64,000 nt of DNA from Chryseobacterium sp. GTDB lineage: Bacteria; Bacteroidota; Bacteroidia; Flavobacteriales; Weeksellaceae. A program made the position numbers and the translations under genes. Positions 46,982 to 55,193 of this stretch are shown in pieces (the first letter of the stretch is position 1; each line of letters starts with the position of its first letter). Location of the stretch: contig JAITMC010000028.1 of NCBI GenBank assembly GCA_031277615.1, positions 1 through 64,000 of the forward strand. The letters are read 5' to 3'. The notes under the pieces are model-generated. The model had not been told where the DNA came from, did no database searches, and saw only the letters and a list, made by a program, of their open reading frames with translations.

Positions 46982-49576
46982 ATGAACTTAAACCAATATA
47001 CTGTAAAATCACAGGAAGCTATCCAGGCAGCACAACAGACTGCCATGGAATTCGGCAACCAGAGTATCGAACCTCAACACATTCTGGAAGGCATCTTCCA
47101 GGTGGATGAAAATATTTCGCCTTTCTTATTAAAAAAATCAGAAGCAGATGCCAACCTGGTAAGAGAGCGCAACCGTGAAAATGTAGAAAAACTGCCTAAA
47201 GTACAGGGAGGGAATATCTATCTTTCGCAATCGGCCAACAAAGTATTATTAGATGCACCCAACATCGCAAAAAAAATGGGTGACGAATATGTAACGATTG
47301 AGCATCTGTGGCTTTCTCTTTTAGAAACGACTTCGGAAGTTTCCAAGATGCTGAAAGATATGGGTGTGACTAAAAACCTCCTGGAAGGTGCTATTAAAGA
47401 GCTTAGAAAAGGCAGTAAAGCTACTTCTGCCAGTTCGGAAGAAACGTACCAGTCTTTGAATAAATATGCCAAGAACTTTAATGAACTGGCTGCTGAGGGG
47501 AAACTGGATCCGGTCATCGGACGTGATGAAGAGATCAGAAGGGTACTTCAGATCTTATCCAGAAGAACCAAGAATAACCCAATCCTTATCGGGGAACCAG
47601 GAGTAGGTAAAACAGCCATTGCAGAAGGTATTGCTCACCGAATCATTAACGGGGACGTTCCTGAAAATCTGATGGACAAAACCTTATATTCACTGGATAT
47701 GGGAGCCCTGATCGCAGGAGCCAAATACAAAGGTGAATTTGAAGAGCGTTTAAAATCTGTTGTGAACGAAGTCATCAAATCAGACGGACAGATTATTCTT
47801 TTCATCGACGAAATCCACACCTTAGTAGGAGCAGGAGGCGGAGAAGGTGCAATGGACGCGGCCAACATTCTGAAGCCGGCTTTGGCAAGAGGTGAGCTGA
47901 GAGCTATTGGTGCGACCACCTTAAATGAATACCAAAAGTATTTTGAAAAGGACAAAGCATTGGAAAGACGTTTCCAGAAAGTGATGGTGGAAGAACCGGA
48001 TACTGAATCTGCGATTTCCATTTTACGTGGAATCAAAGATAAATATGAGGCCCACCACAAGGTAAGAATTAAAGATGAGGCCATTATTGCTGCCGTGGAA
48101 ATGTCTCAGCGATATATTTCTGACCGTTTTTTACCGGATAAAGCGATTGATCTTATCGATGAGGCTTCTGCCAAGCTCAGAATGGAGATCAACTCAAAAC
48201 CTGAAGAACTGGATGTACTGGACAGAAAGCTGATGCAGCTTGAAATTGAACTGGCTGCGATTTCCAGAGAAGGTAATCAGACCAAAATTGATCATCTGAA
48301 AGAAGATATTGCCAAGATTTCTGAACAGCGAAACGAGATCAATGCCAAATGGTTGAAAGAAAAACAGAAAAGTGAAGATCTTACCCAGATCAAAAAAGAT
48401 ATAGAATCTCTGAAACTGGAAGCTGAAAGAGCATCAAGAGCAGGAGATTATGCAAAAGTAGCAGAGATCCAGTACGGAAAACTCCGCGAGAAAGAAGAAG
48501 AACTCACAAAGGTGGAGCTTGAAATGCAGAATCATCAGAATGAGCTCATCAAGGAAGAGGTTACCTCTGAAAATATTTCCGAAGTGATTGCCAAATGGAC
48601 AGGGATTCCTGTTACCAAATTATTACAGTCGGAAAGGGAAAAGCTGCTCAACCTTGAGTCTGAGCTTCACCACAGGGTTGTAGGACAGGATGAAGCCATT
48701 CAGGCTGTTGCGGATGCGATCCGAAGAAACAGAGCCGGACTGAGCGATGAGAGAAAACCTATCGGATCTTTCCTGTTCCTGGGTACCACCGGTGTCGGAA
48801 AAACAGAGCTTGCCAAAGCATTGGCGGAATTCCTGTTTGACGATGAAAACAATATGACAAGGATTGATATGAGTGAATATCAGGAACGCCACAGTGTTTC
48901 AAGACTGGTTGGAGCGCCTCCGGGATATGTAGGCTACGATGAAGGCGGACAGCTGACTGAAGCGGTAAGAAGAAGACCTTATTCCGTCGTGCTTCTGGAT
49001 GAAATTGAAAAAGCGCATCCGGATGTATTCAATACGCTGCTTCAGGTTTTAGATGACGGACGTTTAACGGATAACAAAGGGCGTGTGGTGAATTTTAAAA
49101 ATTCAATCATCATCATGACCTCTAATTTAGGGTCACATCTGATCCAGGAGAATTTTGAAAATATTACGGATGAAAACCAGGATGAAATTGTGGATAAAAC
49201 CAAAGTGGAAGTGTTTGATCTTCTGAAGCAGACGCTTCGTCCGGAATTCCTGAACCGAATTGATGAGGTGGTCTTATTCCAGCCTTTAAGAAAAAAAGAG
49301 ATCGGAAAAATTGTTCAGTATCAGCTGAGAGGGTTCAATGATATGCTTTCCAAAAGAAATATTATCATGACTTTCACTCAGGATGCTGTGGATTATCTGA
49401 TGAACAAAGGTTATGATCCTGCTTTCGGAGCGAGACCTTTAAAAAGAGTTATCCAGCAGGAAGTCCTTAACAAACTGTCCAGAGAAATTCTTGCAGGAAA
49501 TGTGAACGACGGAGACCGGATCACTTTGGATTATTTTGAAGAAACAGGTCTTGTTTTCCGACCTTCAGAACAATAA
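46982..49576 (+). CDS. clpB: ATP-dependent chaperone ClpB
   Basis: 864 residues from the ATG at 46982 (MNLNQYTVKSQEAIQ), matching ClpB of about 860; the frame is open from 46928, but that adds 18 basic residues not found in the family. N-domain about 1-150; first AAA+ with GEPGVGKT and FIDEIHTLVGAG; coiled-coil middle domain (about 395-530, rich in E, K, L); second AAA+ with GTTGVGKT and LLDEIEKAHPD; C-terminal sensor FGARPLKRVIQ. It disaggregates proteins with DnaK. Single gene with its own terminator. Confidence 0.97.
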   Translation: MNLNQYTVKSQEAIQAAQQTAMEFGNQSIEPQHILEGIFQVDENISPFLLKKSEADANLVRERNRENVEKLPKVQGGNIYLSQSANKVLLDAPNIAKKMGDEYVTIEHLWLSLLETTSEVSKMLKDMGVTKNLLEGAIKELRKGSKATSASSEETYQSLNKYAKNFNELAAEGKLDPVIGRDEEIRRVLQILSRRTKNNPILIGEPGVGKTAIAEGIAHRIINGDVPENLMDKTLYSLDMGALIAGAKYKGEFEERLKSVVNEVIKSDGQIILFIDEIHTLVGAGGGEGAMDAANILKPALARGELRAIGATTLNEYQKYFEKDKALERRFQKVMVEEPDTESAISILRGIKDKYEAHHKVRIKDEAIIAAVEMSQRYISDRFLPDKAIDLIDEASAKLRMEINSKPEELDVLDRKLMQLEIELAAISREGNQTKIDHLKEDIAKISEQRNEINAKWLKEKQKSEDLTQIKKDIESLKLEAERASRAGDYAKVAEIQYGKLREKEEELTKVELEMQNHQNELIKEEVTSENISEVIAKWTGIPVTKLLQSEREKLLNLESELHHRVVGQDEAIQAVADAIRRNRAGLSDERKPIGSFLFLGTTGVGKTELAKALAEFLFDDENNMTRIDMSEYQERHSVSRLVGAPPGYVGYDEGGQLTEAVRRRPYSVVLLDEIEKAHPDVFNTLLQVLDDGRLTDNKGRVVNFKNSIIIMTSNLGSHLIQENFENITDENQDEIVDKTKVEVFDLLKQTLRPEFLNRIDEVVLFQPLRKKEIGKIVQYQLRGFNDMLSKRNIIMTFTQDAVDYLMNKGYDPAFGARPLKRVIQQEVLNKLSREILAGNVNDGDRITLDYFEETGLVFRPSEQ

Positions 49577-49610
49577 AGTAGTTTTTTTCATATATATTAT
49601 TTTTGTAAGT

Positions 49611-49638
49611 AAGTGCTGCAGCCCAATCTGCAGCACTT
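49611..49638 (+). terminator. Terminator of clpB
   Basis: AAGTGCTGCAG and CTGCAGCACTT form a perfect 11-bp stem with loop CCCAAT, followed by ATTTTTTTT. Confidence 0.9.
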
Positions 49639-49728
49639 ATTTTTTTTATACTTACTAATTTATCTAATCTATGTGAAATATTACTATCTTTATCTTTCAA
49701 ACAAATTACGAACTCAAACAAAATCAGT

Positions 49729-49881
49729 ATGAAAAAGTTAAAGAGAAACGAATTAAAGAAGATCAGTGGCGGAGCTGCTGCTGTTATTACAGAATGTGAT
49801 ATCGATATGAACTGCCCTCCCGGACTTTGCTGCTCAACCGGAAATATCTGCAGGGATCCCAGAAGATATCCATGTATTTAA
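49729..49881 (+). CDS. GG-leader peptide with six-cysteine knottin-like core
   Basis: 50 codons. Leader MKKLKRNELKKISGG (1-15) has the double-glycine cleavage site typical of Chryseobacterium bacteriocin-like precursors. The core (16-50) has Cys at 23, 29, 34, 35, 41 and 49, giving C-x5-C-x4-CC-x5-C-x7-C, a spacing of the inhibitor-cystine-knot type, with CPPGLCC and ICRDPRR. No ATG competes, AAATCAGT precedes the start, and an independent terminator follows 9 bp after the stop. Likely a secreted small disulfide-rich peptide exported by a peptidase-containing ABC transporter, which is not encoded in this window. Activity (toxin, bacteriocin or signal) is unknown. Not reported by longer ORF calls. 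Confidence 0.8.
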   Translation: MKKLKRNELKKISGGAAAVITECDIDMNCPPGLCCSTGNICRDPRRYPCI

Positions 49882-49889
49882 TTAACGAC

Positions 49890-49920
49890 AAAACCAGAGA
49901 TTTTTTCTCTGGTTTTTTTT
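49890..49920 (+). terminator. Terminator of the GG-leader peptide gene
   Basis: AAAACCAGAGA and TCTCTGGTTTT form an 11-bp stem with a T loop, followed by further T. It makes the peptide gene a monocistronic unit. Confidence 0.88.
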
Positions 49921-50145: not shown

Positions 50146-51147
50146 ATGAAAAAAGTCGCATTAGGAGTACTGATTACTCTTTTCGTATCATGTAATAATG
50201 ATACAGAAAATTCCATCACCGAAAACCCAACCCAGGATCAACCCACAATACTTGCTAAAAACAGCGCCATCTGCGGATCGGATGTAGTGAGGCAAAAAAT
50301 GCTTTCTGAAAACCCCGAAGCAGCGCAACGCTTAATGCAGATAGAAAACAATACCGCACAATTTATCGAACAAAAAAAGATGGGCAGAGTTCTCGCTGAC
50401 GGTAGCGTGGAAATCCCAGTGATCTTCAATGTTTTGTACACCAATTCAACAAATAATGTATCCGATGCAAGAATCATCTCACAGATCGATGTCCTGAATA
50501 AAGCCTTTGCTTCAACTCATGCCAATGTTTCTAATATTCCTGCAGAGTTCCAGTCCGTAAATGCCGGTGACACCAAAATCAAATTCAGACTGGTAAAGAC
50601 CAACAGAAAATCTACAACTATCTCTAACTGGGCCCCTGATGATAAAATGAAAAAATCTACAACCGGAGGAATTGATGCAACAGACCCTACCAAATACCTA
50701 AACATCTGGGTTGTAAATTATATGCCATACTCAACCGGATATGTTCTGGGCTATGCAACCTTCCCTGAATCTGCCGGCCTTTGGAATGATGGCGTGGTAA
50801 TGATGGATGAATATGTAGGAGAAGGAGGCCCTGTAGCCACCCATAACAAAGGAAGAGTAACGGTACATGAAGTAGGGCATTATCTGAACCTCAGACACAT
50901 CTGGGGAGATGCCAACTGCGGAAACGACTTTGTAGACGACACACCACAACAGATCACTCTTCACAGAGGCGTTCCTTCCTATCCTAAAATGGAAACATGC
51001 GGCGGTAAATCCCGTTCTGTAATGTTTATGAATTACATGGATTATTCTGATGAAACTACTTTATTCATGTTTACCAAACAGCAAAACGACAGAATGCAGG
51101 CTTCCGTATCCGCCAGCGGACCAAGAGCCGGATTGCGAATTTTATAA
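50146..51147 (+). CDS. M43 family zinc metalloprotease, lipoprotein
   Basis: 333 residues. Lipobox FVSC gives lipidated Cys16. The zinc site is HEVGHYLNLRHIWG (HExxHxxNxxH), and FMNYMDYSDE supplies the Met-turn, as in pappalysin/cytophagalysin (M43) enzymes. Residues about 60-200 are the family's N-terminal region (ADGSVEIPVIFNVLYT). An extracytoplasmic protease, first of three paralogues within 6.5 kb. It is followed by its own terminator. Confidence 0.92.
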   Translation: MKKVALGVLITLFVSCNNDTENSITENPTQDQPTILAKNSAICGSDVVRQKMLSENPEAAQRLMQIENNTAQFIEQKKMGRVLADGSVEIPVIFNVLYTNSTNNVSDARIISQIDVLNKAFASTHANVSNIPAEFQSVNAGDTKIKFRLVKTNRKSTTISNWAPDDKMKKSTTGGIDATDPTKYLNIWVVNYMPYSTGYVLGYATFPESAGLWNDGVVMMDEYVGEGGPVATHNKGRVTVHEVGHYLNLRHIWGDANCGNDFVDDTPQQITLHRGVPSYPKMETCGGKSRSVMFMNYMDYSDETTLFMFTKQQNDRMQASVSASGPRAGLRIL

Positions 51148-51320: not shown

Positions 51321-51854
51321 ATGAAAACAAAAACTACTTTAGGAAGCTTAGCGATGGAGGCTAATGAAAGCAATACCATCCCATCAGAGCTTATTCAAAA
51401 GCTTGTTGACAACTACCGTAAAAATCAGATGACTGCCGCCAATAAAGAACTGGGTATCACCGATTCACATTCCATCTGGTTTGATCTGCCGAGGCTGAAA
51501 AGCTTTATTGCCGCTGTAGAAAATGAGGCCAGAAATATCAATCCCGACGTTACGGATGAAGATCTTGGTATCCGGTTTTATTACGCTGCTTATCCTAAAA
51601 CACAAGACTGGGGCATTATGGAAAACCATCCGGTAGATAAGGAATATGCACAAAAACATACACTGGTTATGATTCCCACACTGAAAAGAGCTGACGAGAA
51701 CGGAGAAATGCTGGATTTTGATTTTGAAGAAACTTCGGGTGAAGCAGACGGAGAAGCCTCAAGATCACAAAGCCCGACAACCCTGAAAGTAACTTTTGCC
51801 GGGAATCATGGAACATTGGCCCCGCCATCCAATACCAAAGCACAGAGTTTTTAA
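51321..51854 (+). CDS. Conserved protein of the HisKA_3/LuxR signalling operon
   Basis: 177 residues, soluble. The N-terminal part is helical (SELIQKLVDNYRKNQ), the middle has FYYAAYPKTQDWG and HTLVMIPTLKR, and the last 50 residues are acidic and Ser/Thr-rich. No catalytic motif is recognised. It is the first gene of a four-gene unit (30 bp to the next gene) that ends in a kinase and a response regulator, so a role in the same signalling path is inferred. Confidence 0.7.
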   Translation: MKTKTTLGSLAMEANESNTIPSELIQKLVDNYRKNQMTAANKELGITDSHSIWFDLPRLKSFIAAVENEARNINPDVTDEDLGIRFYYAAYPKTQDWGIMENHPVDKEYAQKHTLVMIPTLKRADENGEMLDFDFEETSGEADGEASRSQSPTTLKVTFAGNHGTLAPPSNTKAQSF

Positions 51855-51883: not shown

Positions 51884-52534
51884 ATGACTGATTTTCAGAA
51901 AGTACTTCAGGAGTCTTTAATCTGGACAGAAGGATTTGCCGCCGTTATTTCTCTTCTTTACTTCACCCGTGAAAAAGAGAGTACATGGAAATACTTCTCT
52001 CTATATCTTGTTTTGATGTTTCTCTGTGAAGCGATGGGGAAATGGGGACATCTCCTGCTCTCCTACGACAAGCCCAAGTTCTTCAATTATTTTGTGATTC
52101 CTGTAGAGTTTCTGTTTTTCTACTGGCTCTATGCAGCAAAATCTTTTGGGAAACCAAGGCTGTTTTATATGCTGTCGTTCCTGTACTTACTTTCTTTTTT
52201 ACCCAGTGAGTTTTTCTTCACCAGTAAAAAAATAATTTTTTCCTTCAATTACACCTTCGGGTGTCTTATCCTGATGATCCTGGTGGTGATGGAATATTAT
52301 AAACAGATCAACTCTTCCGAGATCCTGAACTTCAGCAGAAATAAAATGTTCTACATCAACCTGGGAGTTACCTTATTTTATATCGGAACTCTTCCGTTCT
52401 GGACCTTTTTCAGTCTTCTGAGCGAGTACACCGAACTGTGGAATCTTTATTTTAACTACTTCCTGATTACAGGAATCATCATGTATCTTTTATTCTCAAT
52501 TTCATTCATATGGGGAAAACAGAGCTCATCATAA
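51884..52534 (+). CDS. Seven-helix membrane protein of the signalling operon
   Basis: 216 residues with about seven transmembrane segments, Phe/Leu/Tyr-rich, without a soluble domain. It overlaps the kinase gene by 25 bp, which implies close coupling. It might be a sensor subunit for the kinase; this is inferred from arrangement only. Confidence 0.72.
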   Translation: MTDFQKVLQESLIWTEGFAAVISLLYFTREKESTWKYFSLYLVLMFLCEAMGKWGHLLLSYDKPKFFNYFVIPVEFLFFYWLYAAKSFGKPRLFYMLSFLYLLSFLPSEFFFTSKKIIFSFNYTFGCLILMILVVMEYYKQINSSEILNFSRNKMFYINLGVTLFYIGTLPFWTFFSLLSEYTELWNLYFNYFLITGIIMYLLFSISFIWGKQSSS

Positions 52535-54194: not shown

Positions 54195-55193
54195 ATGAAA
54201 AAAGTTCTTATAGGAGCCGGAATATTCTTTCTGGCCTCCTGCAGCAGCGACATGAATTCAACGAGTGAATCTCCGGAGGCGGAGGCTCCGGCCACGCAGA
54301 CTGCCAGTAAAAGAGTATGCCCTTCCGATCTGATGAGAGAGGAAATTTTAAGCAGAGATCCCGAAGCACGTGCAAGAGTTAACGCTATTGAAAAGTACAC
54401 AGAAAACCGTATTAATGAAATTAAGGTAGGCAAAGTACTAGCCGACGGCACCGTGGAAATCCCTGTTGTTTTCAATGTAGTGTATAAAACAACTGCTGAA
54501 AATGTTTCCGATGCAAGACTGCAGTCTCAGATTGATGTCCTGAACAGAGATTACGGAGGCACCAACTCCGATGTTAACAATACTCCAGCAGAATTTGCTT
54601 CAGTAAAAGCCGGAGACACTAAGATCCGTTTCAGACTTGCTAAAACAGTAAGAAAACAAAGTAATACAACTCTTTGGGATCCGGATCAGAATAAAATGAA
54701 AGCAGCGAGCACAGGGATCGCAGCCACCTCCCCCGACAACTATCTTAATATATGGATCGTTAATAAAATGACTGACGGCACACTTGGCTACGCTTACTAT
54801 CCGGGAACCATCACTTCATCTCTGGATGGTGTGGTAATTGCAGCTCCTTATATCGGAACCGGCTCAGGAACTTCTGCTCCTTTTAATCTGGGCAGAACCG
54901 CTACTCACGAAGTGGGACATTACCTGAATCTTCCACATCTTTGGGGATCTACCAATGCAGGCTGTCAGACCGATTATTCCAACGATACTCCTCTTTCCCC
55001 AGGCCCGAACTTCGGTGTTCCGTCCTATCCACTTAACCGCTCATGCGGCGGGGTAAGCCGCTCTCAAATGTTCATGAATTATATGGATTATTCTGATGAT
55101 GTATCTCTGTATATGTTCACCACCAACCAAAAACAGAGAATGCAGGCTGTTGTGGCTGCTTCGGGGCCAAGATCGGGATTAAGACTGTATTAA
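54195..55193 (+). CDS. M43 family zinc metalloprotease, lipoprotein
   Basis: 332 residues, very similar to the following paralogue. Lipobox FLASC, zinc site HEVGHYLNLPHLWG and Met-turn FMNYMDYSDD. The first 68 bases of the coding region are identical to those of the next gene (55599), while later parts have diverged, which points to recent duplication or gene conversion. Three paralogues in a row suggest a dosage or specificity role. Confidence 0.93.
   Translation: MKKVLIGAGIFFLASCSSDMNSTSESPEAEAPATQTASKRVCPSDLMREEILSRDPEARARVNAIEKYTENRINEIKVGKVLADGTVEIPVVFNVVYKTTAENVSDARLQSQIDVLNRDYGGTNSDVNNTPAEFASVKAGDTKIRFRLAKTVRKQSNTTLWDPDQNKMKAASTGIAATSPDNYLNIWIVNKMTDGTLGYAYYPGTITSSLDGVVIAAPYIGTGSGTSAPFNLGRTATHEVGHYLNLPHLWGSTNAGCQTDYSNDTPLSPGPNFGVPSYPLNRSCGGVSRSQMFMNYMDYSDDVSLYMFTTNQKQRMQAVVAASGPRSGLRLY

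Follow-up and report, generated by a model that had tools for sequence, protein, structure and literature searches.

The 64,000-nucleotide window analysed here (Chryseobacterium sp., contig JAITMC010000028.1, positions 1 to 64,000) carries, at 49729-49881 on the forward strand, a small gene for a six-cysteine peptide precursor with a double-glycine (GG) leader. Comparative evidence indicates that this is a real and conserved gene. We consider it probable that the precursor is cut, exported and oxidised by the route of a C39-peptidase ABC exporter (PCAT) and that its core also folds as a cystine knot, the two being taken jointly. Bacteriocin-like antagonism is ranked as the most likely role, ahead of signalling and enzyme inhibition, but only tentatively.

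A conserved precursor gene behind clpB

The precursor divides at the GG into the leader MKKLKRNELKKISGG and the core AAAVITECDIDMNCPPGLCCSTGNICRDPRRYPCI. The gene and its immediate surroundings are as follows.

49729-49881, forward strand: knottin-like GG-leader peptide precursor gene, 50 residues, ATG start (open reading frame; 84 orthologues)
49729-49773, forward strand: double-glycine leader MKKLKRNELKKISGG with Leu -12, Leu -7, Ile -4 and Gly-Gly at -2/-1 (column conservation in 84 orthologues)
49774-49878, forward strand: core of 35 residues with six Cys, C-x5-C-x4-CC-x5-C-x7-C (alignment; AlphaFold; Foldseek and VIA)
49890-49916, forward strand: terminator-like hairpin of the peptide gene, followed by a T tail (hairpin scan)
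49659-49692, forward strand: promoter-like block TTTATC...GTGAAAT...TATCTTTA, 36 nt upstream of the ATG (conservation across loci)
49607-49642, forward strand: terminator-like hairpin ending clpB, setting it apart from the peptide gene (hairpin scan)
46982-49576, forward strand: clpB, the constant upstream neighbour (ATG start from comparison with locus L168)

In a protein search over 296 relatives, 117 had a match at E <= 0.01; full-length matches (E <= 4e-13) were obtained in 80 of 173 Chryseobacterium genomes, the source genome counted in. When 320 genomes of the taxonomic family were searched with a profile, the same 80 came back plus four genomes of a second genus, and beneath these 84 full-length relatives the scores drop from 82 to 36 bits. 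All 51 named loci from a contig search were Chryseobacterium. In a phylum sample of 296 genomes that included the genus, the only match outside the family was a partial one of 26 bits (G461). A mobile element was considered and rejected: the plasmids and phages searched held no match to the peptide, and none of 168 pattern stretches in viral contigs was confirmed as the peptide.

Every one of the 84 loci has clpB upstream on the same strand, 136-1506 nt off, with only the companion peptides described below intervening. The sequence-only reading of this DNA had described a 35-residue core after a double-Gly site with this Cys pattern, and the open reading frame matches it exactly. Across the orthologues all six Cys columns are invariant, as are further positions including Pro30 and Asp43, and the spacing 5-4-0-5-7 is identical in 83 of 84; the exception (L065) diverges past the fifth Cys, where the last spacing is changed. 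Variation in Cys number had been named in advance as evidence against the proposal. Constancy holds among the orthologues but not among distant GG-leader paralogues, those of the source genome differing in both Cys number and spacing. The best conserved loop of the core, besides a short CPxGL stretch, is that between C5 and C6, [RK]-D-x-[RK]-x-Y. Median pairwise ratios of non-synonymous to synonymous substitution (dN/dS) are 0.17 for the leader, 0.29 for the core and 0.24 for the whole, the pairs not being independent, and they point to purifying selection on the gene. A spurious open reading frame, for which only the small size speaks, is next to inconceivable given the 84 orthologues that all lie 3' of clpB, the invariant Cys, the low dN/dS (about 0.24) and the conserved promoter-like block.

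Because hairpins stand both at the end of clpB and after the peptide gene, the latter looks like a transcription unit of its own. Between 49500 and 50200 there are three terminator-like sites, against 0.1 +/- 0.4 in shuffled sequence; the third and weaker one falls within the peptide reading frame, and the hairpin at 49890-49916 with its T tail agrees with the terminator that had been claimed for this gene. Similar hairpins follow the gene in many of 25 aligned relatives, and the clpB-end hairpin is present in most of those aligned that have no companion. Rfam gave no match above the gathering score in the window between 44000 and 64000.

Leader, exporter and putative oxidation machinery

The leader has the features expected of a PCAT substrate. 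According to one account, the groove of the C39 peptidase is filled by leader residues -4, -7 and -12, and leaders end in GG, GA or GS (PMC6363468). In our set Leu -12, Leu -7, Ile -4 and Gly -2 are invariant and position -1 is Gly in 69, Ser in 8 and Ala in 7, so that all 84 have hydrophobic residues at -4/-7/-12 and G-[GAS] where cleavage is predicted. The expectation that relatives would keep leader and Cys spacing together was thus borne out (recognition residues in 84/84, spacing in 83/84), as was that of a PCAT-type transporter in the genome. The source genome has five C39 matches. One is part of a complete PCAT, whose gene on contig C16 is clustered with those for HlyD, a VKOR-Thioredoxin_4 fusion and five further Cys-rich GG peptides. 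At L182 (955-2466) a predicted tyrosinase-like protein adjoins the exporter cluster.

This machinery is spread through the genus. A C39 match occurs in 80 of 80 genus carriers, and the four genus genomes that lack one (G056, G078, G098 and G166) are all non-carriers, G166 having the companion peptide. VKOR turned up in 110 of the 118 genus genomes screened. In 68 of 76 places it was no more than 5 kb from a listed C39, a biased count since the places were hand-picked, one per genome, in favour of the C39 contig. The C39 gene is on the same contig as the peptide, 41-69 kb apart (30 carriers checked). The linkage does not point to a dedicated pair of peptide and exporter, in view of this distance and of the C39 matches in nearly all genus non-carriers too.

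In the explanation that we favour, the PCAT would bind the leader helix, cleave after the GG and export the 35-residue core, which the VKOR-thioredoxin fusion encoded with the exporter would oxidise outside the cytoplasm. The core would then close into a three-disulfide cystine knot, with I-IV, II-V, III-VI connectivity expected, in the manner of the non-chitin-binding six-Cys hevein-like peptides and of squash inhibitors. For the window sequence the calculated monoisotopic mass is 3763.617 Da for the cut core with three disulfides and 3769.664 Da for the reduced one. This stable mini-protein would act extracellularly, and we take the conserved C5-C6 loop as its putative contact site for the target. 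We infer the cleavage, export route, oxidation, connectivity and function.

Predicted fold and comparison with known families

The knottin-like character proposed from the Cys frame accords with the retention of that frame and with the predicted fold. AlphaFold models the core as a hairpin mini-fold (pLDDT 82.6), for which Foldseek and VIA give weak matches, mostly to knottins and hevein-like peptides, with TM-scores of 0.5-0.6. By E-value the trypsin inhibitor EETI-II leads the Foldseek matches, and searches by sequence and by fold also brought up Ac-AMP2, hevein and domains of wheat germ agglutinin. The solved knottins matched by the core come from plants or venoms or were designed from those. 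The motif CXnCXnCCXnCXnC is present in 84 of 84 orthologues; it is the six-Cys hevein-like motif, and CC at Cys III-IV generally goes with cystine-knot connectivity in plant six-Cys peptides (PMC5743680). Plant six-Cys hevein-like peptides of the non-chitin-binding kind, which share this motif, and squash knottins have a similar predicted mini-fold but arise from eukaryotic signal-peptide precursors, unlike the GG-leader peptide of the window. As no significant sequence match was obtained (best E 0.27), convergence is the likelier source of the Cys frame and fold shared with plant and venom knottins. A viral fold library likewise gave no significant match (best E 1.4). Prokineticin (Pfam PF06607) was rejected at 17.5 bits against a gathering score of 21.6; the resemblance, which consists of an AVIT stretch and reaches E <= 1 in 8 of 65 members, is likewise taken as convergence.

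Among bacterial families, NCBIfam NF047798 (leader_Chryseo, bacteriocin-like protein) has the same leader type in the same genus, and NF047792 (CCPGW, putative bacteriocin) shares a common GG-type leader, six Cys, CC at III-IV and a predicted cystine-knot-like fold. By score the window peptide is a member of neither: it reaches 19.4 bits against a cut-off of 23.5 for the former, and 16.2 against 80 for the latter. Its leader begins MKKLKR, as against MKNLKKL in most NF047798 matches of the source genome, while the CCPGW family has the spacing 5-5-0-4-6 (11 aligned sequences) and other loops, and lies off the clpB contig in the source genome. One CCPGW peptide of that genome (G000:C46:112727-112876, L274) and its relatives show this spacing, which is close to the classical inhibitor cystine knot, and a structure model fits. 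The source genome has 26 leader_Chryseo matches above cut-off (43 at E <= 10; loci L079-L108), and a tandem array of Cys-rich GG peptides occupies 29750-31101 of contig C15.

The bacteroidetocins of Bacteroidales (class IIf) offer a further comparison. In their loci, too, a GG peptide with a 15-residue leader and a Cys-rich core is found together with a C39 ABC transporter and a thiol oxidoreductase (PMC6671954). They differ in having four Cys, a 42-residue core, the exporter in the same small locus, demonstrated killing and BamA as target. The window peptide appears to work like a PCAT-exported, disulfide-rich peptide of the class II bacteriocin-like type with a knottin-like core. Among the matches listed in a literature search, no paper was recognisably on this peptide family by title or abstract start, and a search pairing knottin with double-glycine found no paper.

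A companion peptide and a moving promoter-like block

At 24 of the 84 loci (20 in the genus and 4 of 4 in the second genus) the interval between clpB and the knottin-like gene contains a different GG-leader peptide with six Cys, in one to three copies. In the seven loci read, this companion stops 11-17 nt short of the knottin ATG. The promoter-like sequence moves accordingly. Of the 60 companion-less loci, 42 have GTGAAAT...TAnnTTTA ahead of the knottin ATG; none of the 24 loci with a companion do, and in 12 of these it stands before the first GG peptide. Shuffles gave 0 in each class. The looser TAnnTTTN was found in 59 of 60, 1 of 24 and 24 of 24 respectively (shuffle means 13.3, 1.4 and 4.2). 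Since the sequence from the block through ATGAAAAA.[TC]TAAA.AG is nearly identical ahead of either gene in the 13 loci compared, we infer that one promoter serves the locus and that the first reading frame has been gained or lost through recombination in the shared leader codons. Where both occur, companion and knottin-like gene seem to form an operon; they are separable, as the companion occurs alone in four genus genomes.

The loci of the second genus go on to a third GG peptide, with the frame C-x15-CPx3CC-x5-C-x7-C; at these loci (L166-L169) it shares the CPx3CC-x5-C-x7-C half and has a first loop of 15 residues. Two more short GG peptides at L277, with the frame C-x5-C-x4-CC-x3-C-x4-C, may represent another knot family.

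Distribution and probable loss of the peptide gene

For the 93 genus genomes lacking a full-length match, clpB was sought in 80 and located in 79, and the 3' stretch was read in 50. Neither the leader nor the core pattern, both of which match 84 of 84 carriers, was found within about 1.3-2 kb 3' of clpB at these 50 loci. A clpB tree was made of 82 carriers and the 30 non-carriers with the clpB end closest to that of the window; on it the presence of the peptide requires at least 12 changes. Several non-carriers are nested within carrier clades, which suggests that the gene has been lost repeatedly. In two of eight pairs compared, the sequences on both sides of the missing cassette align closely, and in a third they do so partly; in the remainder the downstream sequence differs. 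In several relatives (L041, L061, L199 and L185) a conserved element with the palindrome CCGTAAAAACACGG stands before the next gene, 3' of clpB and the cassette.

The downstream neighbourhood

Between 50146 and 55193 of the window, two metallopeptidase genes flank two proteins without Pfam match and a HisKA_3 kinase/LuxR-type regulator pair.

50146-51147: M43 (pappalysin-type) metallopeptidase (Pfam)
51321-51854: 177-residue protein, no Pfam match
51884-52534: 216-residue protein, no Pfam match
54195-55193: second M43 (pappalysin-type) metallopeptidase (Pfam)

The kinase/regulator pair consists of a histidine kinase (HisKA_3, HATPase_c) and a response regulator of LuxR type and is located some 2.6 kb downstream of the peptide. 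Within 1.5 kb downstream in the 84 carriers we counted the 177-residue protein 64 times, the 216-residue protein 60 times, a histidine kinase 50 times and M43 16 times. After or near clpB in the 50 non-carriers the counts were 39, 28, 14 and 12; the stretches are unequal and the counts only roughly comparable. Since the same proteins occur near clpB in non-carriers, the block belongs to the region and was not gained together with the peptide.

Possible roles of the peptide

Several observations bear on the choice among roles. No dedicated immunity gene was recognised at the peptide loci, and the 177- or 216-residue protein may be an immunity protein. The net charge of the core, -2 to +1 across 84 sequences, is near neutral, so that a simple cationic membrane killer seems unlikely. 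Many loci, both with and without the peptide, have a two-component system on the downstream side, and this conserved kinase/regulator neighbour lowered the weight that we give to antagonism and slightly raised that of a secreted signal. In that case the producer or its kin would sense the oxidised core, perhaps by way of this system, and the core would regulate behaviour without killing. The kinase within 1.5 kb in 50 of 84 carriers, the near-neutral core, the slow evolution and the lack of a recognised immunity gene are all consistent with signalling. We nevertheless regard it as unlikely: the downstream block does not travel with the peptide (177- or 216-residue protein in 40 of 50 non-carriers, kinase in 14 of 50 over shorter stretches), the clpB tree suggests repeated losses, and three-disulfide knots are not known as typical bacterial pheromones.

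Somewhat less plausible again is an enzyme inhibitor resembling squash or amylase inhibitors, which would block a host or rival protease or glycosidase, or else the M43 proteases that the producer itself secretes. The EETI-II match argues for it, as do the adjoining M43 gene and the M43 genes within 1.5 kb downstream in 16 of 84 carriers, yet M43 is found beside clpB in 12 of 50 non-carriers as well, and the TM-scores are just 0.5-0.6. Loop 1, by which squash inhibitors act, is here less conserved than the C5-C6 loop. A hevein-like antifungal peptide that binds chitin, suggested by the Ac-AMP2, hevein and wheat germ agglutinin matches, is very improbable. The chitin-binding motif of hevein comprises CC+3 and CC+5, with an aromatic residue at CC+5; here CC+5 is Ile, Val, Thr or Leu in 84 of 84 and aromatic in none, and CC+3 is Trp in 2 of 84. 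Chitin_bind_1 matched weakly in 2 of 65 members (best E 0.03), and chitin binding was rejected for want of hevein-type binding residues. Bacteriocin-like antagonism keeps first place among the roles.

Implications

A broader picture, which we put forward as a possibility and with some doubt, is that Chryseobacterium and its sister genus maintain a bacterial knottin production line. In it, one leader type would take a wide range of Cys-rich cores through a genus-wide cluster of PCAT, HlyD and VKOR-thioredoxin; among the cores would be at least two separate cystine-knot families (the knottin-like clpB-locus peptide and CCPGW) and, in the sister genus, one with a third frame. Cores at the clpB locus would be gained or lost by recombination in the leader codons. 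If so, any core arriving at the clpB locus would join the reading frame served by a single promoter. Knottins are valued as scaffolds for their extreme stability. A bacterial knottin family that combines a simple GG leader with an exporter of known type and a linked disulfide-forming enzyme would open these peptides to simple genetic study and perhaps to production, and it would make directly testable what the dozens of orphan Cys-rich GG peptides in Chryseobacterium do.
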